This document shows, piece by piece, positions 14,121-63,481 of a DNA stretch of 64,000 nt; the first letter of the stretch is position 1, and each line of letters begins with the position of its first letter. The DNA comes from Pomacea canaliculata (taxonomy: Eukaryota; Mollusca; Gastropoda; Architaenioglossa; Ampullariidae), in NCBI RefSeq assembly GCF_003073045.1, contig NC_037596.1, forward strand, positions 27,564,392 to 27,628,391, given 5' to 3'. The translations under genes were made by a program, and so were the position numbers. A model generated the notes under the pieces. That model saw nothing but the letters and a program-made list of their open reading frames with translations. It made no database searches and was not told the DNA's origin.

Positions 14121-14151
<31 letters not shown>

Positions 14152-21171: not shown

Positions 21172-21870
21172 GTATGTAATATTTTACTGGTGTAAGACAA
21201 AACTGATTGAAACTACATTTTCACAGAAATAAAATAAGGATTTTTTTACAACATTATCACAAGTATGTTTGCAAAAGCATTATCGTTTAGCACAGTAATT
21301 AACAAACTCATAATTACATTAAAAAGAATATAAAACAAAAACATTGTTTACTTTTTATTAGACGGGCATGCTGGCTATGGAATCTGTGCAGGAAAAAAAC
21401 AGTTTGATGATATATTGATAATAAGCGGGATTTCTGCTGCCGTTGTTGTCGTCATTGGAGCTGTTATCTTCGTCTGCATCATCAAGCAGAGGCGAGGTTA
21501 GCATGTTTTCCTTTTGTGCGTATACATGATTAAAATCAATTGAGTTCTGTCCCTCCCGACAAAATAGAAAGCGATCTGGGTGTTACACTTAGCTTTTTCA
21601 CAATAAGCTGAAGTTGCCTCCATTTTCATTGCTCAGGCCACAGCTATAGTATCATAGAGTTTACTAGTCTCACTTGTAATCCTCAGTTAGGACGTCCGTT
21701 GGCTTAGTAACATAGTTCCTGTGACCCGCACAGTGAGTATGGTAGAATGTGTTGTTTAGAATTTGAGTTTAACAAGTTATTGTTTCTCATATCAGGGCTA
21801 AATAATATTCTGATACGAGATAAGTTCATTTGTCCTGCTTATGTCGTGAAAGTATTTAAATATACATATA

Positions 21871-22628: not shown

Positions 22629-24059
22629 TATACAAATTCCCTTTTGTTAGAATGTTGTCGCAGTGGCTTTGAAATAGTAAAGGAATTTTTAAAATAATGA
22701 CACAAAAACGACAAAATTACGCAGAATCATAAAAAGATTCAGGAAATAAATGTATATTCAGTATCTATTGATAATGCTCGGGTAGAGTTTGTCGGAGTCG
22801 CACTGTGTTTTGAGTTTTCATACAGTCTTCAGCAAGCGTAAGACAACAACTCCTGTTGTACACTACACCGCGCCATCGGGTGACCTGTACACGATCGTTG
22901 GTACAAGGATAAGAAACCACGGCGATAATGAGAATATCGCAATTTGTGAAACAATCGAGACTCGACTATCTAGAACAGAGCATATTGGGTGTGATGAGGC
23001 TAGGTCACAACCTCACAAGACGGACGAAACAAGAAAACCTCTAAAACCAAAAAGAAACCTAAAGCCAATCAGAACAGGTAAACCAATTCCAGGATTTACT
23101 AGGTAAAACAATGACACCTATTTAAAAGGCAGCATTGTGGAAATAAAAAATCTTTTATTAAAAATGCTTTAGTCTTAATAGAGTTGTTGTAGTGTCCAGT
23201 AGTAAAAAAGGTCATTAAAGGTCATTAAAGAACTTTTGTTTGTAGCAGTGTAATGTTTCCTTTCCTCAAAACCTTGAAAGCCTTACCTCCTAAACAAGTT
23301 TACGAAGCGTATTAAAAGAAAGGAAAAAATAAAAAAATCCAAGTTTAAATTTAAACGGTGAAGACTTTGAACTATATTAAACATATCAAAGAGGATGATA
23401 AATTTAGACAAAGGGAGAGAACGTAGACAGACCTCTTGTGCCACGGGAAAATAATATTTCAAGAGGAGGAAACATGGTGGCACAAAAAACATTTGGTGAG
23501 TTGAAGAAAAATCGTGTGTTTGTCTATTGCTTTTTCTTTTCTATTCATTATGAATTCCAGAGGTTACCTATTCGAATGTCCCTGAAATGTCAGCTCATTC
23601 TTGTGTGGACGTTTATCATGACGATCTCTGGACGACCTCTGGGTCGACTGAACCTGATACAACCGTAAGTTATGTTTCTGTTCAGTCTGTCAGATATTTA
23701 TAATCCAAGAGACTAGTAATGATAAAGATTTAATAATAAAGAAAAAATTCTAATGAAAGTACAATCACAATCTTCTTAGAACTAAGTAATTTCATTTCTT
23801 TTTTTGCCGACAAAATATTTCACTTACAATATCAGTAATTTGTCGATATCGTGTATGTTTTTTTGTATCAAAACCAAAATTTTTAAACTCTACAATTTAA
23901 TTTTAACTTCTGTTTTCTTTATATGTCACATGTGTTCAAATAGAAAACTACTGCAGCAGAGATTGCAAATGACGAATATAATGCCCTACATTTCCATGTG
24001 AACTGTTCAGAACATCAACAGGACGACACTTACTACAGCCACCTTAACCTTTAGTAGCA

Positions 24060-26586: not shown

Positions 26587-28730
26587 ATGACACTCATAGT
26601 GTGGACAGTGTACTGTGTTCTTCTACTTTCTGGTTGTTCGGGTAACTGAGTATTTTATGTTATTATCATGCGTATAATATTATAATAGTTTAAAACAAAT
26701 ACATTTTAATTTAATCGTATGAACTTAGTACTTATTTGTTCTTACAAATTATAAGGAAACTTTTAGAAAACTAATTTGTATGTCTTGCTTTGGTTTCAGA
26801 TATTAAAGTATACCAATATTTTAAAACACTGGTGCAAGCGCTGTAGACTAAGAGTTAGTACACACGATCCAATTGGAATTTAAGATGACTATGTACACCG
26901 ACTTTAACAAAGAAAAGTGTGATTATTTGGTCATTTTACAGCTCTCAGTATTCAGCAGTGTTCATCTGGAAAACAGTACGTTTATGAACAAAGCACTGTA
27001 CACCTCAGTTGCGGTCAGTGCAGCGATAAGATACAATGGTTTGTTAGGGGCAACAACGATCAACGTGATAAATACGTTGGCGAGTGCACTGAAATCACGT
27101 GCAACGTTGAAGACAACTCTGCCTTTCGTTTAGCAGCAGATACGAGCAACAAACTTTACAGCAGTAAGCTTGACATTATTAACATCCAACGACTGGATCC
27201 ACTTCATGTATCGTGCTGGTGTTACCGCTTGTACACAAATAATTTTTATGGAAGTTATTACTCCAAAGCCAGTGATTCGTGCAAGCTTATCACAGGTACG
27301 CGGAATCTGAGAGAGATGCAGAAATGTATAAAATCATTTCTTTTTAAATTTTACTGATTTGCAGAATTATCTTTCCCTCCTATTGCATTGACTGTATGAG
27401 TATCCTGAGTGTGTGCAAAATAAACCTAAAATCATTGTAGTGGTCAGATGACTTAAAGTTTAATCATGGGGATTGCCTCTATATTTCATGAAGCACTAAA
27501 GAAGCCTTTGAAAAGGTTTTTAGATAGCGTCACAGGCACTTTTTTCCTTCAGACTGTACAGGTTTACAGTGAGGTTGTTTTTGGTAATATAACAATTCAC
27601 AATAAACGAGATGCCATACCGCGGTTTTCCAAAGGCAATGAAATTTGAGTGTGTTTAAAGGCTTCTTACGCATGTTTTAATTCTTTTATTACATTGTGAG
27701 CTCAGTGCCTATCAGCATTGTCCAGGGGAGCTGCAGTGTACAGCTGTCAGGATGGAAAGTGTCCGGAGTGTGTACAGTTCAATGGCTGGATGGTCAAACT
27801 ACTCCTATGTGCAAATGGAGTTTGAACTACAAGGTGTGAATATTTAAAGATTGTATATTTTCTCAAATGTGTTTCTTTTTAACCAAACTTTATTTTGTAC
27901 ATGTAAGAACAAAGTATGGTCTCTCTAGTTCTTTAAACCGAAGTTAAACATCGAAATGAAAAAAAAAATATCCTTAACATATATATATATAAGTAATACT
28001 GAGAAATCTGTATAGAAATTAATTTTATTCTGCGTTGCATCTTTTCCAATGATTTACTGGTTTCAACTGTTTCTGCGTTTTAATAATTTTGTGTCTTTGT
28101 AAAAAATAATATGTTTATTAAAAGTAGTTATAAATGCGTTGAAAGAGACCGAGTACATGTGCTCAGAAGTATGTCGTCTAAACAGCGCGTGGAGTAATTT
28201 AATCGTTACTTTTTAAGATGATTACGAATAATATAGTAGTTAAAGTGTTTCTTTAAATTAAAATCCTATGCAGAGCGGAGAACGTGAACTACACCATTTA
28301 CAAGGCCCAACGACATCTGACCAGCGTGGGTCATCCTCGTACAATACAAGAAACTGTACGCTGGAGGTCGACATGCCTGTGGATGATGGTGATTATACCT
28401 ACAGTGTCACAGTGCCCTCCCACCCAGCGGATCGTTTCTCAAAGACACTTCGCATTGGTAACTAAATACTTTTAAAACATTAAAACACGAATTCTTGAAG
28501 CCGAGTGTTTCTAATAGATATGAATATCAAACAATAGATTTTATATCTTCAAAATGTATATAATTTGCGCAGAGCAGCCAGAGGGACCCAAGCACAACTG
28601 TCCAGAAATGGTTCTTGAAGGTTTCGGCATCAACTGCACATGCTATACATCAAAAATTGGGAATCCTCCTGCACACATTGTGTTTATTACATCTAATTCT
28701 AACGATGTTAGTACTGTACTCAATTATTAA
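26587..28730 (+). CDS. Ig-type receptor D: chimeric, truncated, predicted secreted
   Basis: Five exons join in frame to 292 aa: 26587-26641 (signal peptide MTLIVWTVYCVLLLSGCSG), 26942-27295 (Ig1), 27706-27833 and 28274-28457 (Ig2), and 28573-28730. The last is the first half of an Ig3 exon that runs, at about 28680, into unrelated sequence and stops after VSTVLNY. Ig1 has VHLSCGQC, the core Trp in IQWFV and HVSCWC. From about 28735 the DNA matches the 3'-UTR of receptor B, including a shared polyadenylation region (AATAAA at 28890). Gene D thus looks like a deletion fusion of an F-like 5' part to a B-like 3' end. It lacks a membrane segment and tail, so the product would be soluble with half an Ig3 domain. 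It may be a decoy or a dying gene; every exon seen is open. Confidence 0.72.
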
Positions 28731-30557: not shown

Positions 30558-31772
30558 ATGACAATCAGAGTATGGACAGTGTATTGTGTTCTTCTACTTT
30601 CTCTTTGTTCGGGTAACTGAGTTTTTATGTTATAATCATGACTATCATATTATAATAATTAATACATTTTAATCTAATTGTATGAGTTTGTACTTATTTG
30701 TTCTTACAAGAAATGCTAAGATGATATTTGATCAGGTTTTGATATCAAATGATAAGAAAACTTTCAGAACACTAATTTGTGTTTCTTGCTTTGGTTTCAG
30801 ATATTAACAAGTATACCAATGTTTTAAAACACTGTTACAAGTGCTATAGACGTAACGTTAGTACACACATTCCAATTGGAATTTAAGATAAATATGTATA
30901 CAGACTTTAAACAAAAAGATAAGTGTGATTCTTTGATCATTTTCCAGCTCTAAGTATTCAGCAGTGCTCATCTGGACAGATGTACGTTAATGAAGAAACT
31001 ACTGAACACCTAAGTTGCGGTGAGTGCATGTATAACATACGATGGTTTGTTACGGGCGACAATGATCAAAGTGAGAAATTCGTTGGCGAGTGCTTTCAAA
31101 CCAAGTGCTACGTTAACGACAACTCTGCCTTTCGTTTAGCCGCAGAAATGAGAAACGAAGTTTTCAGCAGTGTACTTGACATTATCAAGATCCAACAACG
31201 TGAGCCACTTCACGTATCGTGCAGGTGTCACGAATTTCATATTTATGTAGGGAATTACATGGATGGCATTGCTTCGTGCAACCTTATCACGGGTAAGCAG
31301 AATCTGACAGAGATGCAGAAATGTATAAACTTTTTCTGTTTATATTTTACTGTTTTGCAGAATAATCTTTCAATCTTTTAATCCCATTTCTGTTTTCTTT
31401 TTAGGAATTGGCTATATGAATGTCACTGATATGCCAAATGGATCTGGGTTTGGAGTGGATGATGATCTTTTGAGTCCAGGATTTGGAGATACAGAGCCTG
31501 ATTCAAGAGTAAGATTTGTTCAGTTAAATCATAGGAAAGATGAATATTATCAATGACGTCATATCTATATATATTTAATTACAATAAAATTATTTGCATA
31601 CAGTCACGACCTCTTCTAACAAACGAAGTGATAAATAAATTGCGTACTTTTACGTATAAATAATCTCTCATGTAAAGATGTTTTTGTCAATCTGTTTTTT
31701 TTAAAGTTTGTTAGCAGAGCCTGACATTTTTTTAACGTACAAATGTTGAAACAGGTAAAGTCTGCAGAGTGA
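30558..31772 (+). CDS. Ig-type receptor E: one Ig domain joined to a short tail remnant, predicted secreted
   Basis: Four exons join in frame to 173 aa: 30558-30612 (signal peptide MTIRVWTVYCVLLLSLCSG), 30948-31292 (Ig1), 31405-31508 (a B-like second tail exon with IGYMNV, which fits the ITIM consensus) and 31755-31772 (five codons and a TGA). Ig2 to Ig4, membrane exon and first tail exon are absent. The intron at 31293-31404 starts like the post-Ig1 intron of D and F and ends like the intron before tail exon 2 of B, which marks a deletion near 31375. The final exon lost part of the B-like sequence that carries EYNILH, so the frame stops early. Without a membrane helix the product would be secreted, and its former signalling motif could not work. 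Soluble decoy or relic. Confidence 0.65.
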
Positions 31773-32039
31773 ATAAAGAATACAACATACTACATTTTCA
31801 AGTAGATTGTTGCTGGCATGAGGATCACGACAACAACTACAACCGTTTTGACCTGAAATAACATTTGTCTTCATGCATCCTGCTTTGTGAAATGTGTCGA
31901 GGTCTGCCAGAGTTGTTTAGTCTCATGTAGAGATTACTTCTTTTGACATTCTGAGGTGTGAAACATACTGTTGAGATTGTAGACAAATGGACTTTATTGG
32001 TAACACTGTTGTGAATTTGTATTGAAATATAGTCACTTT

Positions 32040-33112: not shown

Positions 33113-36100
33113 ATGACATTCAAAGTGTGGACAGTGTACTTCATTCTGCTACTGTCTGGTTGTTCAGGTAACTGAGTTATTTATATTATTATTGTAAGTA
33201 TATAATAATAGTTTTCAACAAGTAAGTTATAGTATAAGCTCCGTACTTATTTGTTCTTAGAAGAAATAGAGGATATTTGAGCTTCATATATAAAATTAAA
33301 AGGAAACTTTTAGTAACTAATTTGTCTTTCCTGTTTTGATTTCAGACATTAAAAAGTATACTGATGTTTTAAAGCACTGTTACAAGTGGTATAGACGTAA
33401 CTCAATCATTTTCAATTTTAAGATAAATATTTACACAGACTTTAACGGAGATAAGAGACACTAAGCTATTTTAAAATTGACAGGCTCGACATGCCATTTA
33501 GGTAAATGTTTGCCTATGGTCTTCGTTGGTGTTGGTGTTGTTAATGTGATTATTTGGTCATTTTACAGCTCTCAGTATTCAGCAGTGTACATCTGGAGAG
33601 AAGTACATTAATGAACAAACCACTGTACACCTCAGGTGCGGTCAGTGTAGCGATAAGATACAATGGTATGTTAGGGGCGACAACGATCAACGTGATAAAT
33701 ACGTTGGCGAGTGCACTAAAGTCACGTGCAACGTTGAAGACAACTCTGCCTTTCGGTTAGCAGCAAACATGAGAAAAAAATTTTACAGCAGTGAACTTGA
33801 CATTATTAACATCCAACGACGGAACCCACTTCACGTATCCTGCTGGTGTTACCGCTTCTACACAAATCTTTTTTATACAAAGTACTACTTCGAAGCCAGT
33901 GCTTCATGCAAGCTTATCACAGGTACGCGGAATCTGACAGAGATGCAGAAATGTATACAATTTTTCTGTTTAAATTTTACTGATCTGCATAATTATATTT
34001 CCCTCCTATTGCATTGACTGTATGAGTATCCTGAGTGTGTGCAAAATAAACCTAAAATCATTGTAGTGGTCAGATGACTTAAAGATTAATCATGGGGATT
34101 GCCTGGTATATCTAATGAAGCACTAAAGAAGCCTTTGAAAAAGTTTGATTATAATACTTTGTATAGAAACTTCTGTATAAAGACATTAATGTAAACAGCC
34201 TCAAAAATGTCCCCATAACAAATACAAACCTTTCTGTTTTATTATTGTAGTGCACTGTGACGTCACAGCACCATGTTGTTTAAATGTAACTTGCTGCTGC
34301 TGCTGATGATGATATCGGTTTGTAATGCGCAGGTATCCATTCAGAAGAATGCTCATTTGCTCACAAAAAAACCCCACAAAAAAAAAACCAAAAGTGAAAA
34401 AATAAAGTGAACAAATATATAAAACACCAAGAAAGTAAAACACTAGAGACAGAAGTGTTTCTTGGTTGTTTAAGACTGTTTTGAAAAGAAATTTCCATCT
34501 TATTGGTGGCGCAATGGTTAACGCTTGTCATGATTGCAGTGGGGCTGTTAGACGTTTTCAGAAAGTGTCACAGGCACTTTTTTTTCCTTCAGACTGTACA
34601 TGTTTACAGTGAGGTTGTTTTTGGTGAAATAACAATTCACCTCCGCCCTTGGTTTAACACATTAAATTAGACCTGAGTTCTTCCAAAGGCAATGAAATGT
34701 GAGTATGTTTAAAGGCTTCTTACGCATGTTTTAATTCTTTTATTACATTGTGAGCTCAGTGCCTATCAGCATTGTCCATGGGAGCTGCAGTGTACAGCTG
34801 TCAGGATGGAAAGTGTCCGGAGTGTGTACAGTTCAATGGCTGGATGGTCAAACTACTCCTACGTGCAAATGGAGTTTGAAATACAAGGTGGGAATCTTTA
34901 CAGATTTTATATCTTCTCAAATGTGTTTCTTTTTAACCAAACTTTATTTTGTACATGTCAGAGCAGAGTAAAAACTCATAATAGTCTCTCTAGTTCTTTA
35001 AACCGAAGTTAAACATTTAAATGAAAAAAATATCCTTTCCATCTATATATATATAAAGGTAATACTGAGAAATCAGTAAATAAGTTAATTTTATTTGGTG
35101 TTGCACCTTTTCGATTGTTTTACTGGTTTTAGCTGTTTCTGCGTTTTAATAATTTTATGTGTTTGTAAAAAATATGTTTTCTAAAAGTTATAAAGAGACC
35201 GAGTGCGTGTGCCCAAAAGTATGTCGTTTACGCAACGCGTGGAGTAATTTAATCGTTACTTTTTAAGATGATTACGAATACTATTGTAGTTAAAGAGTTT
35301 CTTTAAAGTAAACTCCTATGCAGAGTGGAGAAAGTGGCCTACATCATTTACAAGGCCCAACGTCATCTGTCCAGCGTGGGTCTACATGGTACAATACAAG
35401 AAACTGTACGTTCGAGGTCGACATGCCTGTGGATGATGGCGATTATACCTACAGTGTCACAGTGCCCTCCCACCCAGCGGATCGTTTCTCAAAGACACTT
35501 CGCATTGGTAACTATTTACTTTCAAAACTTTAAAACACCAATTCTTGAATCCGAATGTTTCTATGAGATATGAATGTCAAACAAAAGCTTTTATATACCC
35601 AAAATGTATAATTTGCGCAGAGCAGCCAGAGGTACCGCAGCACAACTGTCCAGAAATGGTTCTTGAAGGGTCCAGTATCAACTGCACATGCTATACATCG
35701 AAGATTGGGAAACCACCTGCACACATTGCGTGGTCTGAATCAAATAACGAGCATCTGGCTGTGGAAAATATATATAGAGGAGGAAGCGGCGCCCTTTTTA
35801 CTTGCAAGCTTTTGTGGGGAGCCATCAGTAAAGAAACGATATACACCGTTAGAGTAATGAGTAAGTAACGTTTTACTTACTGCTTCATTTGTATGGCAAT
35901 CATTTCAGTTTCAATGTCAGCATGTGTTTCTTCTTCTCTTGCTTTGCCAGTCTCACAACTAAGTAATGGATTTTACTATTGTATATACAAAAATGTCCTA
36001 AGTTTTCAAATATAATGCCAATTTTAGTATTTTCTTACTTTTAAACAGAGGAATTAAAGAATCAAACTAAATGCCTTTATTTTCTCATCCTCCATGTAAC

Positions 36101-39100
36101 CATGTAACTCCGAGGACCGTTCACGCGCACAGGCACCCTAGTGGTAACGGCCGTACGCTACGTTGCGGTTTTTAAATTTTTTAAGACGTAAATGAAAGAA
36201 TATATAAGGGAGAAAACACGGAATCCCTTACGAATTGTTTCTCTTTCCATTACTTCCCTTTAAAGGCTAAAAAAATCAACCAATCAGGTATTTTGTTTTG
36301 TTTGAGCGAACACGACGTTTTGTTTATCAATCGCCATATTGACATTTATTACCTGTCGCTCAATTCGACGTGGATTGTGTACTCAAACAACCAAAAATGA
36401 GAAAACAAACAGTAAGTAATATTGAAATTCATTTGTATATTCTAATAAAACATATGTCTGTTTTGTACTTTTGTGTATGTATCTATTTCATAATTTTTTT
36501 TTTATTGTCAAATGTTTGACCTACATCCCGCTTTGTGAATTCTCCGTCCTATACACTCTTTCAGTTGATTTTACTACAAGACAACAACACGTATGTTTGT
36601 TAAAAGTTACACCACGTAAATGTCTTTTAAATTATCTTTAAAATGGAGTATCGCAGATAGCTGTTTTTATTCATGGTTAAATATAATTTAAAAAAGAATA
36701 CCGGTCAAAGTTCATTCACCGGGTTTCGCCGCTTAGTTTCTGTGTGTCAAACCGCCTCTAGCCTAAATGTCCTCAAAGAGTAAAATACGTAATTTGTGAG
36801 TTTCTATGGACAAGAACAATGTATGTGCATTTCTTATTGTTTTTAAACATCAATTTCTGTCTCCTAAAAGTCTAACTTCTTGTTAGCTGACATAACCTGT
36901 GTCAACATGTGTCGGAACAACTTTTAAGTTTCAAGTAGATTGTTCCTTTTCTACACGTTGTAATCTATCATTATCAGTTTGAATTTTTCTTCTACCTCTT
37001 TTATGTACTTTTTTATGATTTTTTGAAAAACGGTAATAATCATGCGTACCAGTGGGTCAAACTGCCTCTAACCTAGCCATCTTCAATGAGTTAAAATTAC
37101 GACATGGATTTACAACTGTTTTTAAGATGGTCCCTCTGGAATAGACATCAGAAGCTACACGAGAACATCTGGAGACAGTACAGAGATTGTGTTAGTATGT
37201 ACTGCAATAGATGTTTACCCTTCAGCTGTGTTTGTCTGGAACATCACGTGTGACAACATTACTGACAGCTCGAATACCAGCACGTGTACCTTTACTACAA
37301 CGAGTGAAGAAGCCGAGATGATAGTCGAGTGCACAGCAAGCAACAGTGTGTTTGAGAATGTGTCTTCATCGGCGATTTACGTGGTACATATCTCAGGTAC
37401 GTAATATTTTACTGGTGTAAAACAAAACTGATTGAAACTACATTTTCACAGAAATAAAATAATGATATTGTTTACATCATCACAAGTATGTTTGCGAAAG
37501 CATTAACGTTTTAAACAATAATTAACAAACTCATAATTGCAGTAAGAAGAGTATAAAACGAATACATTGTTTACTTTTTTAGACGGGCATGATGGCTTTC
37601 AAATCTGTACAGGAAACAAACAGTCTCATGACATATTGATAATAAGCGGGATCTCTGCTACCGTTGTTATCGTCATTGGAGCTGTTATCTTCGTCTGCAT
37701 CATCAACAAGTGGCGAGGTTAGCATGTTTTCATTTTGTAAAGTGCGTATAGATGATTAGAATCAATTGGGTTCTGTCCCTCCCGACAAAATAGAAAGTGC
37801 AATGTGAATTGGGTGTTGCATTCAGCTCTTTTACAATAAGCTGAAGTTGTCTCCATTTTCATTGCTCAGACCACAGCTATAGTATCATAGAGTTTACTAT
37901 TCTCACTTGTAATCCTCAGTTAGGACATCCGGTGGCTTAGTAACATAGTTTCTGTGACCTGCACAGTGAGTATTATAGGATGAATTGTTTAGAATTTGAG
38001 TACGATATTGTTTCTCATATCAGGGCTAAATAATACTGTCATACAACATAAGTTCATCTGTCGCATTCATGTCGTGATAGGAATTAATATATATTTAATT
38101 CTAAATATATATTAATTCCTTTTTGACTTGTTCTTAGAATGCTGTCGCAGTGGCTTTAAATCAGTAAAGGAAATTTGAAAGTAATTACTTGTAGTACACA
38201 GGATGATAAACAGATTCAGGAAATAAATGTAAATTCAGTATATGTTAATAATGCTCGGTTAGAGGTTGTCGGAGTCAGTGTTTTAAGTTTTCATACAGTC
38301 TTCAGCAAGCGTGGGACACCGACTCCTGTTGTACACTACACCGCGCCGTCAGGTGACCTGTACACCATCGCTGGTACAACGATAAGAAACCACGGCGATA
38401 ATGAGAATATGGTAATTTGTGAAACAATCGAGAATCGACTATCTAGAACAGAGCGTATTGGGTTTGATCAGGCTTGGTCAAAACCTGACAAGAGGGACGA
38501 AAGAAGAAAACCTTTAAAGCCAAAAAGAAACCCAAAGCCAATCAGAACAGGTAAACAAATTCCATGATTTACTAGGTAAAACAATGACACCTATTTAAAA
38601 GGCAGCATTGTGGTAATAAAAAATCTTTTATTAAAAATACTTTAGTCTTAATAGAGTTGTTGTAGTGTCCAGTAGTAAAAAAGGTCATTAAAGGTCATTA
38701 AATAACTTTTGTTTGTAGCAATGCAATGTTACCTTTCCTTGAAACCTTGAATGCCTTACCTCCTAAACAAGTTTACGAAGCGTATTGAAAAAAGGAAAAC
38801 ATAAAAAAAAATCCAATTTTTAATCTAGACGGTAAAGACTTTAAATTAAAAATATCAAAGAGGATGATAAATTTAGACAAAGGGAGAGAACTTACACAAA
38901 CCTCTTGTGCCACGGGAAAATAATATTTCAAGTTAAGGAAACATGGTGGAACAAATAACATACTGACTTCTTTGAATAATAATTATGTGTTTGTCTATTG
39001 CTTTTTCTTTTCTATTTATTATGAATTCCAGAGGTTAACTCCGCGAATGTCACTGAACTGTCAGCTGATTCTTGTGTGGACGTTTATCATGACCTTTCCT

Positions 39101-39515
39101 GGACAACCTCTGGATTGACTGAACCTGATACAATCGTAAGATATGTTTCTGTTAAATCTGTTAGATATTTATAATCCAAGAGACCAATAATGATAAAGAT
39201 TTAATAATAAATAGCAAATTCTAATGAAAGTACAATCTTAATCTTAGAACTAAGTAATTTCATCCCTTTTGTTGCCGACAAAACATTTCACATACAATAG
39301 AAGTAATTTGTCGCTATCATTTTTTTTATCAAACCCAAAAGTTTTAAACTGTACAATTTAATTTTAACTTTTGTTTTCTTTATATGTTGCATGTGTTGAA
39401 ATAGAAAACTACTGCAGCAGAGATTGGAAATGACGAATATAATGCCCTACATTTCCATGTGAACTGTTCAGAACATCAACAGGACGACACTGACTACAGC
39501 CACCTTAACCTTTAG
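33113..39515 (+). CDS. Ig-type receptor F: four Ig domains, membrane segment, tyrosine-motif tail (complete)
   Basis: Ten exons join in frame to 610 aa: 33113-33167 (signal peptide MTFKVWTVYFILLLSGCSG), 33569-33922 (Ig1), 34760-34887 and 35324-35507 (Ig2, split at phase 0), 35621-35860 (Ig3), 37127-37396 (Ig4), 37583-37717 (membrane exon), 38299-38550, 39032-39135 and 39405-39515 (tail). Ig1 has VHLRCGQC, the core Trp in IQWYV and HVSCWC; Ig2 ends in DDGDYTYSVTV; Ig4 has LVCTAIDV, VWNIT and IVECTA. The helix (about residues 428-450) has no charged residue, and the tail is about 155 aa. Tail motifs: LYTIA, VYHDL, EYNAL and, at the very end, TDYSHL, which fits an ITSM-like T-x-Y-x-x-L. YNAL and YSHL are 15 residues apart. 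Likely a plasma-membrane immune-type receptor. The Ig3-Ig4 intron holds a roughly 970 bp insertion. Ligand unknown. Confidence 0.87.
36105..37085. mobile_element. Insertion of about 970 bp in the Ig3-Ig4 intron of receptor F
   Basis: The same intron of gene C is about 300 bp and lacks this block: flanking CTCATCCTCCATGT and TTAAAATTACGACATGG are contiguous there apart from a few bases. CATGTAAC is doubled at the left edge. The block contains two related strings, near 36745 and 37050 (GTCAAACCGCCTCTA and GTCAAACTGCCTCTA), so it has an internal repeat. Part of it (about 36350-36730) matches 46120-46320 in gene G. No open frame or clear terminal repeat; family unknown. Confidence 0.65.
38079..38120. 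repeat. Short perfect palindrome in receptor F intron
   Basis: Two perfect 18-base arms (AGGAATTAATATATATTT and complement) flank a six-base loop. It lies where the Tigger-type element sits in the matching intron of gene C. Confidence 0.85.
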
Positions 39516-42236: not shown

Positions 42237-45200
42237 ATGATGAGACCGACGATTTTGATATTATATGGACTTATACTTATGGAGGTAAAACTTCAATCAG
42301 GCAAGTAAACTTTTATTAAACCATGTATTTATGAAATTAAAACCTTTATTTATTGAGCTGTAATAACATGTATGGCAATGGAATTTTTTTAATCATTTTT
42401 TTCTAATTCTTGTAAAAGAGCGCGTGTACACATACACACACACGCGAACACAATTAAAATGTTTAAAAATTTATTGATGGGCGATGATAGAAACGGACGA
42501 AAAATAGACAGGACATATTTGTGTAATTAATATACAAAAATAGTGTGAAAAGTATATATATAATATATATATAATATATATATGTTTTTAAATCTATTAC
42601 TTGTTTGCATAGCTCTGAATATTATGAATGCTCGTCGTGGAACGATAACTGTAACGGAGGGCAGTAACATCAGCCTCACTTGCAGTCTGTATAAACGACA
42701 ACTAGAGTGGGACTTTTCTCCTGACTACCCATCACGATTCTACATCGGAAAGTGCAATAGAAGGTTGTGTTACATCCCAAAACACCGACAGTTTAGGATG
42801 TATGCCTCGTTAGCTCAGCGGCATTTTCCTTTCTACAAAGGCACGCTTGAAATTGTGAATGTCACAAGACAGGATCCTTCCATCTTCCGGTGCTCGGACC
42901 CCGACACAAAGGAGATCGCCTCGTGTAGGATTCAAGTCACATGTGAGTAGAGTGCACTTTACATTCCTTGGAGCATGACCTATGTCGTAGTCTGACAACA
43001 TTGGCATGTAAAACCTACACAGTTCCGAACGAAAGCATGGCTTAGAAAGGGAAGTAATCTATAGTATAACAACTTCTGATGGCTCCAGTGCTTGTCTCCC
43101 TTTATGTTTTCATTCATTTACGCACAGAGAGATTTTTTTTTCTAAGATAATACTCCCGGTAGGATATATCTTTTTCTTACTCGTGTAAGGCGGCTGTGCG
43201 CGGGGTAGGTTACATTTGAGCTTTTTGTCGTTATTGAGTTTAATTCAATCTTTTCTTTCTTCGGTAAAACAAGCAACAAAATGTGTTTTTTTTTTTTTTT
43301 TGATACATGATATTTCTATTTTATAGCTTCTGCTAGCATCGTTCCCGGCACCTGCTACGTGACGATACACAGCTGGCACGTGCACGGCACATGCGCTGTA
43401 GAAGGAATGTTGGCTTCAAACGTTGTTCACAAGTGCTCTTGGCTATTAAACAATGGTGACCAGGTAGCCATTCACGATGTTTATAACCTTCTGCGCAAGT
43501 ATATCTAAAGACTTTCCCAAAAAGTTTTGAATTACTACCAAAAACATATTTGCACTTTATGTCAAACACAAAGTGCTTATTCTTTGTAAACGCTTTTTTT
43601 ATTTAATAAAAGTAAATTTAATTCAGCAATATGAGAAATAAGAAAGCATAATCAACAAAAAGAAATAAACTTAAACATCCTTGTCTTTATCAGCCTACTC
43701 ATAATCCTAAGTACAGTATTATATAATTGTTCTAAGCCTTAATGGAACTGAAAATAAACATTCTGCATCTTATGTTTCGAAATCTTTTTCAAAGTCAAAT
43801 GACATAAGATTTAAAATAATCATTCAGCTTCAGAATGGTGACTGTTAGATGTGCAAAAAACGCTTAACAGTCTATCGACCATTGACCAACTGTATTGCAG
43901 ATCGAAAGTGGGTTTGGAGATTCTCTGAGTCAATACATATTTGACAATATTAATTATTGGAGAGGAAGCTGCTCTTTCAACACGATAATGCCAGTTGTCC
44001 GAGGATGGTATACCTACAGCTTTGCTATAAATCCACCCCAACCAAATTTTTTCGCAGGAACCATTGAAGTAGGTAAGATGATGTTTTTATACCTATGTAG
44101 CTTACGGTCACGCTCGTGAGGGGCTGCTCTTAGAATTTAAGGCAAGAACGAGACAAAAGCAGCATATAGAGGAACTACAAACAACACTAGTAAAATATAA
44201 CATAAAAGACATCTACAGATTAATTAAAACGGAAGAGGATATTAACAACTGATTGTATGTGATTTTGCAGTGGTGTAAAATGGGTAGGGGAGTAGCAGAC
44301 AGACAAAAATAGGTAAAGAAGGGGTCAAAATGGACAAGAATTGTGTGGACTGTTTTCAGAAGTAAGACTCAAGGAAATGTACAATTTACGAAGGTTATAC
44401 ATCTCTAAAGAGTTACAGCATTTAATAACTATTGTACATTGTGCAGTGCCTCCAGGAGAACCTCACCACGATTGTCCAGAAGTTGTAAATGAACAATCTA
44501 CAGTCAGCTGCAAATGCACCTCCTTAAACCCAGGAACGCCACCAGCGGAAATTGTTTGGGATGGAATGTTTGATAATAGTAATACTTTACTTATTCAAAC
44601 TGTGGAACAGCAAAGTACAGTCAACAGTTATACATGTCGACTGACATGGGGTCCAAAAGGATTTATCAACCGAACAGTTGTTTATACCTTTAAAATAGTA
44701 GGTAAGTATAAGTTATATTATTGAACAAATACCTGTACATTAGTACGTAAGTATTATAAGGTTTACTTTTTGTGTCATAAAATGTGTAACCGAGAGCTGG
44801 GGTTCAGGACTGACGACAACAACCGTCCAACACTCAGATAAAAGCAGGAACCGTCAGCAGGTGTGACACTTGAATTCACGGGCGACAACAATGCGACGGC
44901 TGCGGCGCCACACGTTGATGCCCTTCCCGATCCACTGATCTGATCGACTGATTATATTTCTAAGTAATTACTGCGGGGGCACGATGTGTGTAGAAGGGCC
45001 GGCATTCTGTCAATCTGCCCCGTGTGTGATTGTCCAGTCATAATTACATTTCATAGGCGCAGCCGTGGAAAAACGAAAAGAAAATGAACAAAATAGTAAG
45101 ATAAACAAACTAATCAATGCTTAAACCACATCTACGTGTTATCTACAGTGTCAATGAATAGTGTCACACAAAACAGTTTTCTACACATGTGAGTTTTATG

Positions 45201-47291
45201 CCTGTCTAACAGCAAACAGCTGCGAATTTTGTGCCTGGGGTACTACAGGCACTGCCACTTCTCGTATCACAGGTCCTGTCACTTCTGGTACCACAGACAC
45301 TGTCATATCTGGCACCACAGCCACTGTCATCTCTGGCACCACAGGCACTCTCATCTCTGGCACCACAGGCACTGCCACTTCTGGAACGACAGGCACTGTC
45401 ATATCTGGCACCACAGGTCCTGTCACTTCTGGCACAATAGGCACTGTCATCTCTGGGACCACAGGTACTGCCACTCCTGGAACTACAGGTACTGCCACTT
45501 CTGGCACAACAGCCACTGTCATATCTGGCACCAAAGGTACTGTCACTTTTGGTATCACTATAGTTCTGGCATGACGGGGTGGGACAGTACCATACCAAAA
45601 CGGAGTTTCTTCGTCACTGTCGCAGTCCTGACAATCCTGTGTCTTCGGCAGTTGACTGTCCTCTAACAGCAGAGACGGCTATATATACATATATATATAT
45701 ATAAAAGAAGTATCGTTGAGCTATCTTTCATTATATATATATATAATTATAGTATATAAGTCCTTGTGTCACAATGTGATACTTTTTCATCTTACAATAC
45801 TTTTGACAATAACGGAATAAAATTGTTAATCTGTTCCTATGCATATTTATTTCACGCAGAAAACAAACCTAGTGCTGGGTCGGCAGTTCTAATAGGAACA
45901 ACTGTGGGTGTTCTTGCTGCTCTGGTTATTATCATTTTCATTATATTGATGATCATACGTCTAAAATGTAAGTGCATTCACATGTAAACTTTCATATCTA
46001 TTTGCAACATGGGATAGATCACAGTGTCATTTGGATGTTTGAATATACATCTGTTTAAATTACTTGCGTTCAGGTATTTTGCTATTTTTGAAAGTAGACA
46101 AAGATTCTGTTATCTTCAATTCGTTTACCAGTTACTCAATTCAACATGGATTTGTACTCAAACCACTGACAATAAGTACAATTAACACCACGCAAATGTC
46201 TTTACAATGCTCTTTTAAAGGGTGTATCACAGATAGTTGTCTTAATTATAGGTTAATAGAAATAATTTTATTTTTAAAATACCGGTAAAAATTTCACTTT
46301 TTGCCTCGCCAGCTGAAAGCAAAGCGCACATTATTAACTATGGAGCATTTCAAGTTTAAAAAATGTTTTTTTTTGAAAGATATAAGTGTGAGATGCAATA
46401 AAATATGCAAGTTTCTCATTTAGTAAAATAAAAGCAGAATGAGCCGCGCTCGCTTAAATAACAATCATGTACCTGTTTCATCCAGAATCTGCCAGGTAAT
46501 AGTACAACTGGTATTTAGCACTTTAATTTATAATTCTTTAACACCACTATGTGCATAGATGTTGTCATAACACAAATTTCCCTTTAATATGTCAGGTCCA
46601 GTATACTGCAAGGCGAAAAGGCCTTTTAGCGAAGAACACACTTACGACGACATCGCAGGTATATTATAGTCACGTGGTCCTTAACAGGCAATATTTTTAA
46701 TCATTTAAAGCAAACGACTTATTATGTTTACTTGTATTTCTTACTTACAATACAAAAATGTAAGTGACGATAGCTACACTGTGCCTAGTGCAAGGAAGAG
46801 AAAATAAAGTAAGGTGTGCTGTTATGGCAGAGATTGTTGTTTATGTTGCTTGAAATGTGAGATCAAATGTTAGGAATGTTTGTAACAGATGTTGAACAAA
46901 GTCCACACTATGACAGACTCACAAGACAAGAGACAGGTGAACATCACTACGAGACTGCTGCCAATGGAGGCGGGAATTGTTCTCAAACTGCAGGCAAGCA
47001 ACTAAGTATTTAAAGCATTACTAATTAAACCATCAGAGAGGAAGTTAACAATTCTTACTAAAAATAGAGATTTTATTTTTGAGAAAACAATTGTTATACA
47101 TATTTACCATGGAGCGTTACATCTCGAAATTTCTAATAAGAAATTTAATAATAAATCTTACATTATGAACTATACATTTTCAATACTACTTATATCTGGA
47201 TCTTTAAAATTTTACTTAGTTTTATTTTCCTTTAGATGGAGTGTTTGTTGTACCTGCAACATATTTGACAGTTTGCAGTCCTGAGAGATAG
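42237..47291 (+). CDS. Ig-type receptor G: three Ig domains, Thr/Gly-rich stalk, membrane segment, ITAM tail
   Basis: Ten exons join in frame to 537 aa: 42237-42300 (signal peptide MMRPTILILYGLILM; GC donor), 42613-42942 (V-like Ig1 with SNISLTCSL, LEWDF, LEIVNVT and IFRCSD), 43327-43463 and 43901-44072 (Ig2, split at phase 0), 44447-44701 (Ig3), 45213-45536 (stalk of repeats of about eight residues such as GTTGTVIS), 45860-45967 (membrane helix), 46596-46658 and 46889-46993 (ITAM exons; GC donor), and 47236-47291 (ending TYLTVCSPER). If the last GC donor is not used, the frame stops at 47013 (525 aa). The tail reads YDDIADVEQSPHYDRL around residues 480-495, with Glu at -3: a canonical ITAM. 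AATAAA lies near 47356. Domain order recalls vertebrate TIM receptors (Ig, mucin stalk, signalling tail), probably by convergence. Use of the stalk exon is inferred from phase and splice sites. Confidence 0.78.
45236..45545 (+). repeat. Coding minisatellite, 24-base unit, in the receptor G stalk
   Basis: About 13 imperfect copies of a 24-base unit (GGCACCACAGGCACTGTCAT plus TCT-type ends) encode Gly-Thr-Thr-Gly-Thr-(Val/Ala)-(Ile/Thr)-Ser. Dense Thr and Ser suggest an O-glycosylated mucin-like stalk. Copy number is probably polymorphic. The opposite strand is also open, a by-product of the repeat. Confidence 0.85.
46070..46330. repeat. Partial second copy of the receptor F intron insertion
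   Basis: TTACTCAATTCAACATGG, ACACCACGCAAATGTCTTTA and the stretch around ATACCGGTAAAAATTTCA align with about 36350-36730. It lies in the intron between the membrane exon and first ITAM exon of gene G. Shared non-coding DNA in two unrelated introns supports a dispersed repeat. Confidence 0.6.
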
Positions 47292-47964
47292 CACATGGCT
47301 GCTCTACACAGCCACAGTACATATGCCTGACAACTTTTGTATGTTCTTAAGGAAATAAAAGTTTTCTTGATTCTTTCTGTGTTTATCTTGGGTAATAAGG
47401 AATTGTCCACAGCATAGCTGTCTTTTTTTCAGGGTCTCCAAAAAATAAAGTATATGGTTATGCATTAGAAAGTAGAAATGAGAATAGTGCCTACTCACAT
47501 TGGTAAGGATCATGTTTTTTTCTCTAAAAAACAAGAAAGAGGCATGGACAGCATATGAGGGACAGGAAAGGAAAGTACATACCGACAACATATGAATAAA
47601 AATGGTAGCAATGTAGAATGTATCAAAACTAAGTCACGCTCACTTAAACGTGTCTTCACGGGATTAAATCATTTCTTGGTACATCAACAGTATGTCATGA
47701 GGGCTTTTACTTGTCTAAAGACTTGTAAAAGATGTAGAAATCGTGTGAAAGTGTATTAACAGGAACAAAACCAAGAAAAAAATTGGGTTGGAAAATAATA
47801 TAAAACAATGAAATAATAAGCATTTGATTTAAATCAAAATCTTCATGTCGTCTGATGTGTTTGTTGTTATAAAGTATATATTAACAGCCTGTACTTTGTG
47901 TAAGCTACTAATTTAATCAAAAGCTAAGACTGTGTGTGCTTTACTGTAATTATTAGCCGAAGTG

Positions 47965-50680
47965 TCTACACTAAAAGTAAAGTGAACAAATTTATATTGT
48001 CGTCTATGTTTTTTCCTATTTCTTTCCTTCTGTTTTCTTCTTTTTTTATGCAATCTGACTAGAGGTGTCTATATTGTTTTATTTAATCGGGATATATTTG
48101 ACTATTTGGTTGCAAACTTATTCATTCAAGAATTGGAAAATCATAGAAATGCATTTTTAAGTCGAAAATGAAAATTGTTTTCCTGTGATCAGCGATATCA
48201 CACACTTAAATTTTTCAACTCACTGGCCGAACAAGTATAATAAGTCTCTGAGAAAAAAAATCCTGGTCGACATCGACACTTGTCCACGTAGCACAAAGTG
48301 TTTGTGTCATCGCACTCCTCGTCAGTCACACAGCTTGTGGTCGACCAGTCGTGTGGCTTGCTAGAGTTGCCATGGCGTCCAGACTTTTCACTTTTGAAAA
48401 TTATTAATAATAATTTTATGTTATTAGCATTATTCATTTTTCGTTTGAAGTTTAACAAAGACTGTTGGTTTCCGACCGCTTAAATATAACAGAATGAAAA
48501 AAATAACAAATTAAACAGAAACAAAACACAATTGAAAATGCATTTGCCGAACAAGCTTGTGTATTACATAACATTTTCCTCCCTCAAAAATATGACCTGC
48601 ATACGATCTATCAATCTGTAATTTTCATTAGTGAATGCAATAACATCAGATTTACTACCAAGTAGAAGCTGTAAAATCTGTTGTAGTAACTATTCTTCTT
48701 CATAGATGTGAAGTGTGGATTCTGCTTATCTATATGGAGAGGGAAATAAGAGAATACTTTCTGCAGAAGTCAAGAAGAGCTAACACATCTCACCTCTCTG
48801 TAGTCTGTGTCAGCAGACAAGGAGACACACACAGGAGAAAAAAGAAAAATCGTAGCATTTCCATTCACCTGTTAAACACCTGAAACCTCGTAAATTGCAA
48901 ATGTCATTTATATTTATCGCATGTTTGGTTACAGTAATACCCATAAGTAGAAATGACTGCAATAGATTCTACTAACAACAAAATTTAATGATAACAGAAC
49001 TTGCATAGAGAAACGTGCTCTACGCTTTACACAAAACCCGGGCAAATGTGTCTGACATACAGAAATAGAGACAGAAAATATGTTCAAAGGACACAGTGAC
49101 AGTCTTAAAGGGATATTCAAGTCTTATGATAAGGCTCTGGCGACGGTCAAACGTTTCAAAATATATTTAGTTACAATTAGAGAGCACGAGAGCAACACAG
49201 GAGAAATAAAGGATTCGTTTCTCACTTAATTACCATATATTAGCACTATTTCGGTTGCCGATATTTAAAAAAATCGGTAAAAAATCCAGTGAAATCGACC
49301 CTTGTGTCCTTCCGCCGAGTAACCACGATAGCTACCCGAGATGATCAAGCAGACGAGTCTGGGTGTGACGTCAGTCAGAGACGGACAACAAGTGTTAGTG
49401 ATCATTTTTAGGATTTGAACTCGTCATCGGTGGTGTCTCGTCTCATCAATGATGGAATAATGCGTTTTGATGAAATGAGATTGACAAAGTTTAAGGAAAA
49501 GGGAAAGAAGAAATGCAAAAGGTGAATTAGAATTTGGAACTGTTTTGATCAGCGGTTTTTCTACAATTAATCCATTTATAAATGGAAACATTTTTGAAAA
49601 TATTATCATAGGAAGAAAGTTCAAGATGGGACGATAAATCTCGTGCTTGTTTGTGACAAGACTGTCCTCAAGACTGTTGGTGTCCTTCCAGATACGTATA
49701 TCAACAACCAGAAAAGACATTTAACAAGACAAACAAAAACAAAACTTTTTTTATTAACTCTATTATAAAAGTTAAATAAACGAGCTAGAATGTTTCGCTA
49801 CTTAAATTTTGAGTTATGGTACTTACCTATATATAAAAAGTTGTGTTTTCTGTCAGGCTCCACGGCCCAGCAGTCATATTCTTTGACTGGTTATAAATGT
49901 TGATGATAGGATTAGTCGTATACAGCAGACATCGTTTCTCTTATCACCCTCCATTGGAGTAAATCCTGTTGTTGACAAGAAGGACAAACAAGATCCTTAT
50001 CATAAACAACGGATGCTAGCCGCCACACAAATACGGACACTGTAATTCCTGTTAATCCAAGTTTTGCGATAAAATTTAGGTGTATGTGTTATTTTGGCAT
50101 TGTGTTATCTCAAATCTTTGAAAGACTATGCCATACGGAACGTCCAACTATTTTCACTCTGTCTTCTGTGTCGTCACGTGTTCTCTCACTCGTGTTTTCA
50201 TTGGCTTTTATTGCCGCTGTGTCGTGAGACTGATCTGACAAACGACTTATACTATCACTTTTCAGAGTTTCGACAGCAATCATGCAGGAGACAAAATATG
50301 TTTTTGTAACTGATGATCGATACGAGTGACGAATCCCCATGTAACGAAGAGAACTTGTCACTTTGAACCGGAGCTTCACAGTCCAATGCGTTTTATAAAT
50401 AATAGGCAATAGCTTATGGAAACAACAGATTGCCCTTTAAAACAAACATCTCAAATACAAAAAGTCTTAATGTTAACGTAAATCCGTGATTCAACAGTTG
50501 TCAAACGTTTTTCAAACAAGGAACAGATAATTCCCATCTCCCCCTCACTAAGTACCTTACCGCTGTTTAAAGAGTCAGGCAAGCGTTTGTTCACCTGCAA
50601 TGTTTTGATGGTCTTAGTTCCACTCTACATCCCTTAACACTGATAGACACCAGATATTCCGGAAAAATAAAACCGATCTG
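47965..50680 (-). repeat. Left arm of a large inverted duplication
   Basis: The reverse complement of this arm matches 51828-54815 over most of its length with scattered substitutions and indels. Landmarks: CACTTTACTTTTAGTG-like outer ends, the EB and signal-peptide exons, the MITE-derived block near 49109-49310, GTGTTCTCTCACTCGTGTTT near 50180, and CCGGAAAAATAAAACCGATC at the inner end. About 340 bases near 49340-49680 are present here but missing from the right arm. Confidence 0.85.
48198..48864 (-). pseudogene. Truncated divergent copy of the lectin gene 5' end (signal peptide plus EB-like module)
   Basis: On the minus strand, exon 48864 to 48794 encodes MEMLRFFFFLLCVSPCLL, a signal peptide, ending in phase 2 at a GTGAG donor. 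Exon 48390 to 48224 encodes an EB-like module (SCVTDEEC, TNTLCYVDKCRCRPG). Both mirror the first two exons of the lectin gene at 53913-54559. The arm ends soon after, and no PAN exon follows, so the rest is missing. The first cysteine of the module has become Arg and one codon is added. If the last donor is not used, a stop at 48198 would give a small secreted cysteine-rich peptide of roughly 80 aa. Relic or miniature gene; undecided. Confidence 0.65.
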
Positions 50681-51828
50681 AACAAAGGATAAAGGAAAGA
50701 TAGACAGAAAGAAAGAAAGATCATCTACACTCGTTGAATCACATGCAACTTGGCATGCTGCCCAGCCATAGATATATATCAGTCGCACGAACACACACAG
50801 GCGGGCCACCACGTACCTGTCGAACCTTTGATGAACGTACACTAAAACCAAGACGAAATGAACGATACAAAAATGAAGTTTAATAAAAATGTAAATAAAT
50901 ATGAAAAAAAAAATATCGAAATACACTTACACGTACACGAACACGCAAGAAAACCGGGCACTATAGTCGGTATACCCCACGCACAAAAAAGAAAACGTAA
51001 CGAGGGATGTTAGTAAGGGAACATCACCAATGGAAAACAAAAACAAAAACAGTCAAACACTCGCATACACTGCGCCACAATACTGTTAGAGATCTTGCCC
51101 TTAAGGCTTTTAGACCTGACGTCAGATGTAGACACTGTATACTCTGTTGATACTGTCTCCTTCACTTTCTGTGGTCATACTGACGCTTTCGCGCTGACCA
51201 CCATCACACTGTCTGACTTGCTTACTACACGACGCAGGACCGAATGACGAAGAAGACGGAACGAAGAAATGAAGGGAGGACAAAACTAGAGCGGTTTAGG
51301 TTCCGCACACGCTGGGGCAGAAAGGGCGAAGACGAAGATGTGACGAAATAGAAGAAATCAGGGACGACAAGAACCTGGACGAGGCTGACAAGATGACACT
51401 GACGATAAAAATGGCAGTGAATTTTCAATTAACTGTGATAATCTGTTGATGTCAAAATTCAATTTCAGACAACATGGTACTAATTATTTCTTGTGAGAAC
51501 CTCTTGGAATAAGCATAAACGTGTTAAGAAATATATAAATCGTTAACATAATTATAACCTCGGAGCGAAAGTTATATATATATATAACTATATACATCCA
51601 CGCTTGACTTATATAATACATAGCATTAGGTATATATAAGCTTTGACACCCCTTTACAGAAGTCAACATATACGTTTGACAAAATTATTATTAAGCGAGG
51701 AAGTTAAAACTAGAACTCATTTAAATAAGGCTTAGGAACGATGATCGGGATACTTGTAGCGAGGATAGCTTAGTTTGTAACATGGCAGGTGACTGGCAGC
51801 CAGTCAAAAAACAGATAGTTGGAGGGGG
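50680..51828. other. Spacer of the inverted duplication
   Basis: Unique DNA between the two arms. About 50720-50775 resembles part of the 3' flanks of genes C and F (compare 24925-24975 and 40385-40440, sharing ACACTCGTT and ATGCTGCCCA). No gene seen. Confidence 0.55.
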
Positions 51829-53912
51829 ACGTGATCGGTTTTATTTTTCCGGAATATTTGTTTTCTATCAGTGTTAAGGGATGTATAGTGGAATTAAGGC
51901 CATCAAAACATTGCAGGTGAACAGATGCTTGCCTGACTCAGCAACGGTACGGTGCTTAGCGAGGGAGGGGGATATGCGTTATCAGTTCCTTGTGTAAAAA
52001 AACGTTTGACAACTGATGAATCATGAATTTCAATTAACATTAAGACTATTTGTATTTGAAAACTTTTTATTAAAAGGGCAATCTGTTGTTTTCAGAGCTC
52101 AAACGTCTTTTAGTAGATCGGTCGTCGTATCCTAGAGACGGTTACTACTGTGGTTTTGGAGTAACACGTGTTTTAATATTGTGTTGTATTACAGTGACTA
52201 TTATTTCCGACTCCTAGAGAATTCACACATTAGTTCACGTGATTAATGAATGCTACTAAATGTAGTTCATGAATGTTAGCATGAGTTGAATATTACCAGA
52301 ATGTAATGCTAAATGTTATTTTCTACAGACCTTTGTGAAAGAACGTCAGTACAAAACGATCCGGAAGGAAAAATGATCACCGTTTCATGTTATTAAAACA
52401 ATTAAAACAAAAGGTGTGATTGAACACTAACAATTCTTTTTAGGAGATACAATTTATACTTGACAAGAGCAAATATGCATACGCATATTTTCTTTTTAAA
52501 TTACTTGTTTTGAAAGCGAATGCAAACATAACCTTTGTGACATTAACCATAGAACTTTCTCTTTTTCCTGCTTTCTACGTTATTAATAGTATATATATAT
52601 ATATAGAAACATACAGACATGATTTAAATTATTCACAGAGAGGAAAAGGAATAATATATCGCTGGGGTGTTTTAAGCTATTGCCCATTGTTTATAAAACG
52701 CAAATGAACGGTCAGGTTTCGCTCTAAAGTGACAAACTCTATTCTTACACGAGGATTTGTCTCTCGTATGGTTTATCAGTTACAAATGTATATCTTGTCT
52801 CCTGACAGATTACTGTTGGTACGCTGAAAGTTGATAGTATAAGTCATCGGTCGTATCAGTCTCACGATACAACGGCAATAAAAGCCAATGAAAACACGAG
52901 TGAGAGAACACGTGACGACACAGAATACAAAGTGAAAACAGTTGGACGATCAGTATCGCAAAGTCTTTCAAAGATTTGAGATAAGGCAATGCCAAAATAA
53001 CACATACACCTAAGTTTTATCGCAAATCTTGGATTATAAGGAATTACAGTGTCCATATATGTGGCGGCTAACATCCGTTGTTTATGATAATACTCTTGTT
53101 TGTCCTCCTTGTCAAGAACAGGATTTACTCCAATGGTGGGTGTTTAGAGAAACGATGCCTGCTGTATACGACTAATCCTATCATCAACATTCATAACCAG
53201 TCAGAGAGTATTTAAGTGACTGCCGGGCCGTGGAGCCTAACAGAAAATATCACAGCTTTTTACATATCGGTAAGTACCATAACTAAAAATTTAAGTAGCG
53301 AAACATTCTAGCACGTTTGTTTAAAATTTATAGTAGAGTTAATAGAACAATTTAATTTACAAGCTCACTTATTTAATGTTTTTTCAATAAAATAACAGCT
53401 TTGTGTGTTTTTTTTGTTTTTTTTTTTTTGTTTTTTTTTTTTTTTGTCTTGTTAAATGTCATTTCTAGTTGCTGATATATGTATCCGGCAGGAAGCTATC
53501 GTGGTTACTCGGCGGAAGGACACAAGGGTCGATTTCACTGAATTTTTTCGATTTTTATAAACATCGGCAACCGAAATAGTGCTAATATATGGTAATTAAG
53601 TGAGGAACGAATCCTTTATTTCTCCTGTATCGCTCCCGTGCTCTGTAATTGTGACTAAATATATTTTTGAAACGTTTGACCGTCGCCACAGCATTATCAC
53701 AACCCGTGTCTCTATTTCTGCATGTCAGACACATTAGAGCGCGTTTTGTGCAAAGCGTAGAACGCGTTTCTCGATGCAACTTTTGTTATTAAATTTTATT
53801 TTTAGTAGAATCTATTGCAGTAATTTCTACTTATTGGAATTACTGTAACAAAACATGCGATAAATATAAATGACATTTGCACTTTACATGGTTACAGGTG
53901 TTTAACAGGTGA

Positions 53913-63481
<9,569 letters not shown>

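Follow-up and report, generated by a model that had tools for sequence, protein, structure and literature searches.

The locus of Pomacea canaliculata analysed here raises the question of whether an invertebrate Ig receptor carries a canonical ITAM in its own chain, and of which role such a receptor would play beside its neighbours. The window, i.e., the whole stretch of 64,000 nucleotides that was analysed, contains a plus-strand tandem cluster of receptor genes, one of which (gene G) had been singled out in a preliminary description as a receptor with three Ig domains, a stalk and an ITAM split between two tail exons.

The Gene G Model

Gene G was modelled at 42237-47291 as nine exons encoding 429 residues, in a frame that is open throughout and with consistent splice phases. 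All its junctions are phase 1, except for a phase 0 junction within domain 2. The exons, together with a minisatellite that lies outside the model, are the following:

42237-42300, plus strand: exon 1, signal-peptide-like by eye (MMRPTILILYGLILMEVKLQS), with the GC donor CAG/GCAAGT
42613-42942, plus strand: exon 2, Ig domain 1 (V-type), from sub-threshold Pfam matches, paralogue alignment and AlphaFold/Foldseek
43327-43463, plus strand: exon 3, first half of domain 2, 36% identity over 39 residues with the gene B exon 13156-13290
43901-44072, plus strand: exon 4, second half of domain 2, 34% identity with the gene B exon 13557-13739
44447-44701, plus strand: exon 5, domain 3 (Ig-like), 33-36% identity with gene C and F exons
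45245-45552, plus strand: 24-bp minisatellite of 12.8 copies, possible Thr/Ser/Gly stalk exon, outside the model
45860-45967, plus strand: exon 6, transmembrane (TM) helix without charged residues, by inspection
46596-46658, plus strand: exon 7, first ITAM half, SEEHTYDDIA, phase 1-1
46889-46993, plus strand: exon 8, second ITAM half, DVEQSPHYDRL, phase 1-1, with a GC donor
47236-47291, plus strand: exon 9, the last one, DGVFVVPATYLTVCSPER and then the stop

A poly(A) signal, AATAAA at 47354, is found 63 bases past the stop. The model includes two GC-AG introns, at 42300 (CAG/GCAAGT) and at 46993 (CAG/GCAAGC), and an Rfam search gave 0 matches at the gathering threshold.

The three proposed Ig domains fared unequally. 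For the first one, both Pfam matches were under the cut-off (Ig_3, E 0.0013; V-set, E 0.0026), the alignment with exons of genes B, D, E and F gave 24-28% identity, and the AlphaFold model, obtained from a five-sequence alignment, reached a mean pLDDT of 84. A Foldseek search with this model returned myelin P0 as the best match (E 3.8e-6), and of at most 2,000 aligned PDB entries 937 matched at E <= 0.001. Judged by its model, domain 1 is an Ig fold of V-type and the only confidently folded domain of gene G, so this part of the initial proposal stands. Domain 2 gave no Pfam match, and its position was set by the paralogues, which share its two-exon split, whereas domain 3 showed a sub-threshold match to Pfam Ig_2 (E 0.053) and a poor model (pLDDT 52); its gene F homologue matched C2-set_2 at E 0.001, also under the cut-off. 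In the fuller alignments, the ectodomain exons of gene G share 24-36% identity with those of genes B, C, D, E and F. The best match of the whole spliced ectodomain among PDB sequences was a weak one to nectin-2 (E 0.032), and an IMG/VR scan for relatives of Ig domain 1 yielded 36 pattern stretches, none of them confirmed.

As for the stalk, the minisatellite can indeed be read through in the Thr frame; a possible phase-1 acceptor lies at 45213, donors of the form CAG/GTACTG or similar occur several times, and the variable sites by codon position are 5, 15 and 19. The case for a stalk exon at 45245-45552 is suggestive at most. The predicted TM stretch holds zero charged residues by inspection, as expected where a receptor has no charged-TM adaptor as its partner. 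A FREP or VIgL lectin, a secreted protein in which Ig domains are combined with a fibrinogen domain, was ruled out for gene G by the presence of the TM exon and the lack of a fibrinogen match, the fibrinogen-domain exons of the window being located downstream of its last exon.

An ITAM Assembled by Splicing

Behind the TM exon, exons 7 and 8 read ...IIRLKCPVYCKAKRPFSEEHTYDDIA/DVEQSPHYDRLTRQETGEHHYETAANGGGNCSQTA..., and the splicing of 46658 to 46889 gives ...FSEEHTYDDIA/DVEQSPHYDRLTRQ..., where the motif region is EEHTYDDIADVEQSPHYDRL. The two exons at 46596-46993 and their joined reading are thus as first described. In the spliced frame we find two YxxL/I boxes, YDDI and YDRL, separated by eight residues and preceded by an acid, the E at -3, so the spliced translation agrees with the claimed Glu at -3 and YxxI-x8-YxxL spacing. 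The usual ITAM spacing is x6-8, with x8 as its upper end, and distances of up to about 12 residues are also accepted. Since exons 7 and 8 lie in different genomic frames, the motif exists only after splicing, and the exon junction (46658/46889) falls between the two YxxΦ boxes, as had been indicated; in vertebrate ITAM adaptors the motif also extends across an exon junction. The ITAM sits in frame behind the TM exon 45860-45967, which supports its place in the same chain as the Ig ectodomain and locates it, with the topology taken by inspection, in the cytosol.

Regarding the splice signals, exon 7 is bordered by an AG acceptor and a GT donor, and exon 8 by an AG acceptor and a GC donor (GCAAGC). 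The exon 8 acceptor (46889) has a weak pyrimidine tract and is the weakest point of the gene G model. If the GC donor of exon 8 were unused, the frame would continue as far as a stop at 47011-47013; the ITAM would be complete in both cases. Exons 7 and 8 are richer in GC (0.49 and 0.47) than the introns around them (0.31, 0.33 and 0.24), but 15-17% of intron windows of equal length reach such values. The complete tail has 74 residues with 5 tyrosines, three besides the ITAM pair. Neither an ITIM ([S/I/V/L]xYxx[I/V/L]) nor an ITSM (TxYxx[V/I]) occurs anywhere in these 74 residues, and an inhibitory receptor identity for gene G was rejected on the lack of an ITIM. A tblastn search of the window detected no other copy of the ITAM exons (next best matches, E 0.67 and 0.87), and an IMG/VR scan for relatives of the tail gave 43 pattern stretches, none confirmed.

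How Often the Motif Arises by Chance

Two approaches were used to see how often such a motif arises by chance. When the 74-residue tail was shuffled 1,000,000 times, the exact acid-led x8 form appeared 41 times and the more general [DE]xxYxx[LI]x6-8Yxx[LI] pattern 122 times; dropping the acid raised the counts to 769 for the x6-8 spacing and to 1,719 for x6-12. The second approach was an enumeration of phase-1 exon pairs bounded by AG and GT (or GCAAG), under a loose filter of at least 5 pyrimidines out of 13. A junction-spanning, acid-led ITAM was present in 10 of the 17,953 plus-strand pairs, namely six gene G variants and four cases in which a single tail exon of gene B was wrongly paired, compared with 1/5,892 for the minus strand and 0/13,260 for three first-order Markov sequences together. 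Without the acid, the loose filter gave 50/17,953 (plus), 7/5,892 (minus) and 13/13,260 (Markov). A stricter filter left 3 of 7,302 pairs on the plus strand, each a mispairing of gene B, and none of the 2,068 minus-strand pairs; the gene G pair was lost here because the 46889 acceptor is pyrimidine-poor.

Comparison with CD79b

When the TM exon and tail were searched against the 177,635 sequences of the PDB, the top match was CD79b (7xq8_B, E 0.012; 8e4c_D, E 0.12), and the whole query from Ig3 to the tail again placed CD79b first (E 0.03). The alignment covers EEHTYDDIADVEQSPHYDRL plus the TGE after it, set against EDHTYEGL-DIDQTATYEDI of CD79b, which has a spacing of x7 compared with x8 in gene G. 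Three out of three shuffles that kept the five motif residues missed CD79b at E values up to 10. In a Smith-Waterman test, the observed score of 60 was reached by none of 20,000 motif-preserving shuffles (maximum 58), in a comparison that is biased because CD79b had been picked as the best match. CD79b has one Ig domain and acts as an adaptor chain, and the intron of CD79B likewise falls between the two tyrosines. The spliced ectodomain had no CD79b match in the PDB at E<=1. Descent from CD79b was therefore rejected as unproven, given that the likeness concerns only the tail (E 0.012) and that the best match of the ectodomain is nectin-2 (E 0.032). We take the likeness to reflect convergence towards one SH2-binding sequence, or chance, rather than descent.

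Gene G and Its Neighbours

Two of the paralogues, B and F, could be assembled from Ig1 to the stop, F without an identified signal exon and B with domain 3 not found:

11841-16297, plus strand: paralogue B, with a signal-like exon, Ig1, a split domain 2, TM and a 153-aa tail ending in EDEYNILHVQVHCSTHEDHDNNYSRIHLK
33568-39515, plus strand: paralogue F from Ig1 to the stop, with four ectodomain units, TM and a 155-aa tail ending in NDEYNALHFHVNCSEHQQDDTDYSHLNL
16184-16297 (gene B): last exon with YNxL-x15-YxxΦ, reading YNIL-x15-YSRI
23965-24054 (gene C): last exon with YNxL-x15-YxxΦ, reading YNAL-x15-YSHL
31772-31861 (gene E): last exon with YNxL-x15-YxxΦ, reading YNIL-x15-YNRF
39405-39515 (gene F): last exon with YNxL-x15-YxxΦ, reading YNAL-x15-YSHL

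The B and F tails show no similarity to the tail exons of gene G. Genes B, C, E and F carry instead a last exon with a YNxL-x15-YxxΦ pair, and its four copies agree in both tyrosines, in the E that precedes the first one and in eight more columns. From its sequence, this pair is possibly a long-spaced ITAM or hemITAM. In gene B the first YNxL box is preceded by E-D-E, and an E-D-E before the tyrosine recalls the hemITAM of Dectin-1 and CLEC-2. A single stretch of ITIM pattern, VDYAGV of gene B, was detected in the B and F tails.

Selection was approached through dN/dS. For exons 2 and 5, gene G against its neighbours gave values of 0.26-0.51, which are rough figures with dS at 1.6-2.7, near saturation, and which exclude the ITAM exons; comparisons between D, E and F, which are recent duplicates, gave 0.68-1.04 for domain 1, above the gene G values. 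The YNxL-x15 exon showed 0.25 for B against F or C and 0.75 for B against E, while C and F differ by two replacements only and E is saturated against either C or F, so that the case for selection on this exon is mixed. As a separate observation, the TM exons of C and F, also recent duplicates, (21361-21498 and 37582-37719) reached a dN/dS of 2.04, from small numbers (13 replacement and 2 silent changes) and with one partner, C, that is probably a pseudogene.

Several of the neighbours are incomplete. Gene C, with stops in its Ig1 remnant, is probably a pseudogene, gene D has its third domain cut short, and gene E passes from Ig1 straight to late tail exons. The decayed, truncated or shortened exons of these three genes (18421-18645, 28578-28718 and 30947-31508) have the appearance of birth-and-death. 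At 115-1750, the tail of gene A, cut by the window edge, contains NYEDL and a possible SIYENVGN end.

Other features occupy the DNA downstream of gene G. A large imperfect inverted duplication at 47968-54815 has arms of about 3 kb (47968-50678 and 51833-54815), which align in 14 pieces that are 84-96% complementary, with an EB-module-like exon (E 2e-4, under the cut-off) near its outer end. Lectin-like exons follow on the plus strand at 54300-63480, comprising an EB-like module, PAN_1 (E 4.5e-5) and a fibrinogen C-terminal domain (E about 1e-23). On the minus strand, at 60522-60884, a weak endonuclease/reverse-transcriptase match (PF14529, E 6e-4, under the cut-off) marks a probable retroelement remnant.

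Proposed Role and Alternative Readings

Taken from its sequence, gene G is probably a self-contained receptor with an ITAM of activating type, which would act via Src and Syk. The predicted product, an IgSF receptor of type I made of a single chain, would carry a compact activating ITAM module as its own tail. On ligand binding, the Ig ectodomains would bring the receptors together in clusters, and the tyrosines of EHTYDDI and PHYDRL would become substrates of a Src-family kinase; the tandem SH2 domains of Syk (or Shark) would dock there, leading to ERK, NF-kB or phagocytic outputs. In favour of an activating ITAM we counted the YxxΦ boxes, the acid, the x8 spacing, the absence of ITIM and ITSM, the CD79b match, the uncharged TM, the open 429-residue frame with its poly(A) signal, the rarity of the motif among tail shuffles and the dN/dS of exons 2 and 5; the weak exon 8 acceptor, the GC donor, the weakness of the CD79b match, judged with three shuffle searches, the restriction of the dN/dS values to the ectodomain and the alternative use of YxxΦ in endocytosis were counted against it. 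Such a mechanism is plausible in molluscs, in view of their place among the Bcl10 lineages and of the published hemITAM-Syk-ERK pathway of oyster and Draper-Shark pathway. In this regard, PMC5978004 reports Syk/Zap70 homologues of vertebrate-like type only in those invertebrates with CARD-CC and Bcl10, and lists molluscs among the lineages having Bcl10.

Other readings of the same tail have to be weighed. YDDI and YDRL might be independent sites, used for clathrin-adaptor endocytosis or by single-SH2 adaptors, with a coincidental ITAM spacing. Both boxes fit YxxΦ, which can serve as an endocytosis signal, there are three other tyrosines in the tail, and a 6-12 spacing without the acid comes up in 1,719 of 1,000,000 shuffles; the acid-led x6-8 form, however, is rarer (122/1,000,000) and the CD79b alignment reaches past the motif residues, so that we regard independent sites as unlikely. 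It seems more doubtful still that the ITAM is never made because gene G is not expressed as modelled, either as a pseudogene or through skipping of exon 7 or 8. Exon 8 combines a weak acceptor with a GC donor, genes C, D and E have broken or missing exons, and the loss of either phase 1-1 exon would preserve the frame; against this, the nine exons are open and consistent in phase, and non-use of the GC donor still leaves the ITAM, ending at the 47011-47013 stop.

A mainly inhibitory ITAM, working through partial phosphorylation and SHP-type phosphatases, or a paired activating/inhibitory set formed with the neighbours, appears very improbable. Such a set would fit the presence of the same ectodomain exon types with different tyrosine tails in the neighbours, as well as the oyster receptor CgIgIT2, which is titled inhibitory and yet credited with an ITAM in a review (see below). 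On the other hand, gene G lacks an ITIM, and VDYAGV of gene B is the one ITIM-like stretch that the B and F tails provide.

For the predicted activating receptor, the combination of family-type ectodomain exons with a tail that is single-copy within the window suggests that tails may have been diversifying by phase-1 exon exchange. A broader reading, tentative and on the whole rather unlikely, is that the cluster represents one molluscan Ig receptor family that swaps tails on a shared ectodomain, with a canonical split-exon ITAM in G and, in B, C, E and F, a conserved YNxL-x15-YxxΦ pair that would act as a long-spaced ITAM or hemITAM. The cluster would then parallel, in an invertebrate, the paired-receptor clusters of vertebrates, with ITAM halves on separate in-frame exons that could be switched by splicing.

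Relation to Known Receptors

Among known systems, Draper/CED-1/MEGF10 resembles gene G as a single-chain invertebrate receptor with an ITAM, on an ectodomain of EGF type and not Ig. The ITAM of Draper is described as used by Src42a and Shark (PMC10366216). Closer to the host of gene G is an IgSF receptor of oyster, to which a 2025 review (PMC11999971) ascribes five Ig domains, a single TM helix, a classic ITAM and ERK signalling. Compared by description only, this receptor and gene G have in common a mollusc host, several Ig domains, one TM and an ITAM in the same chain, and differ in the five Ig domains of the oyster protein. The same review refers to published work on BCR-like signalling in oyster and names CgIgIT2 as ITAM-bearing, a doubtful label, as the title of the cited CgIgIT2 paper says inhibitory. 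The oyster C-type lectins CgCLec-TM1 and CgCLec-HTM, which according to another review (PMC13027682) signal from a hemITAM to Syk and ERK, are like gene G single-chain receptors, but with a C-type lectin ectodomain and half an ITAM, so that the logic of their tails, as there described, is nearer to genes B, C, E and F than to G. In other phyla, a review (PMC12065747) mentions ITIM and hemITAM motifs in the Ig-superfamily FcoR family of Botryllus, and ITAM and ITIM motifs in candidate genes of Hydractinia, whose Alr are likewise allorecognition receptors; these hosts are also invertebrates, and the receptors, again compared by description only, differ in their allorecognition function.

An ITAM in an invertebrate, and even in a molluscan, Ig receptor is thus precedented, and gene G joins a kind of receptor already described. 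If working as predicted, it would add a single-chain ITAM receptor from a tandem cluster to the known invertebrate ones. Vertebrate paired-receptor families are thought to use tail exchange. The close neighbours of gene G, with common ectodomain exon types and unrelated tyrosine tails, would make such an exchange datable and testable outside chordates.
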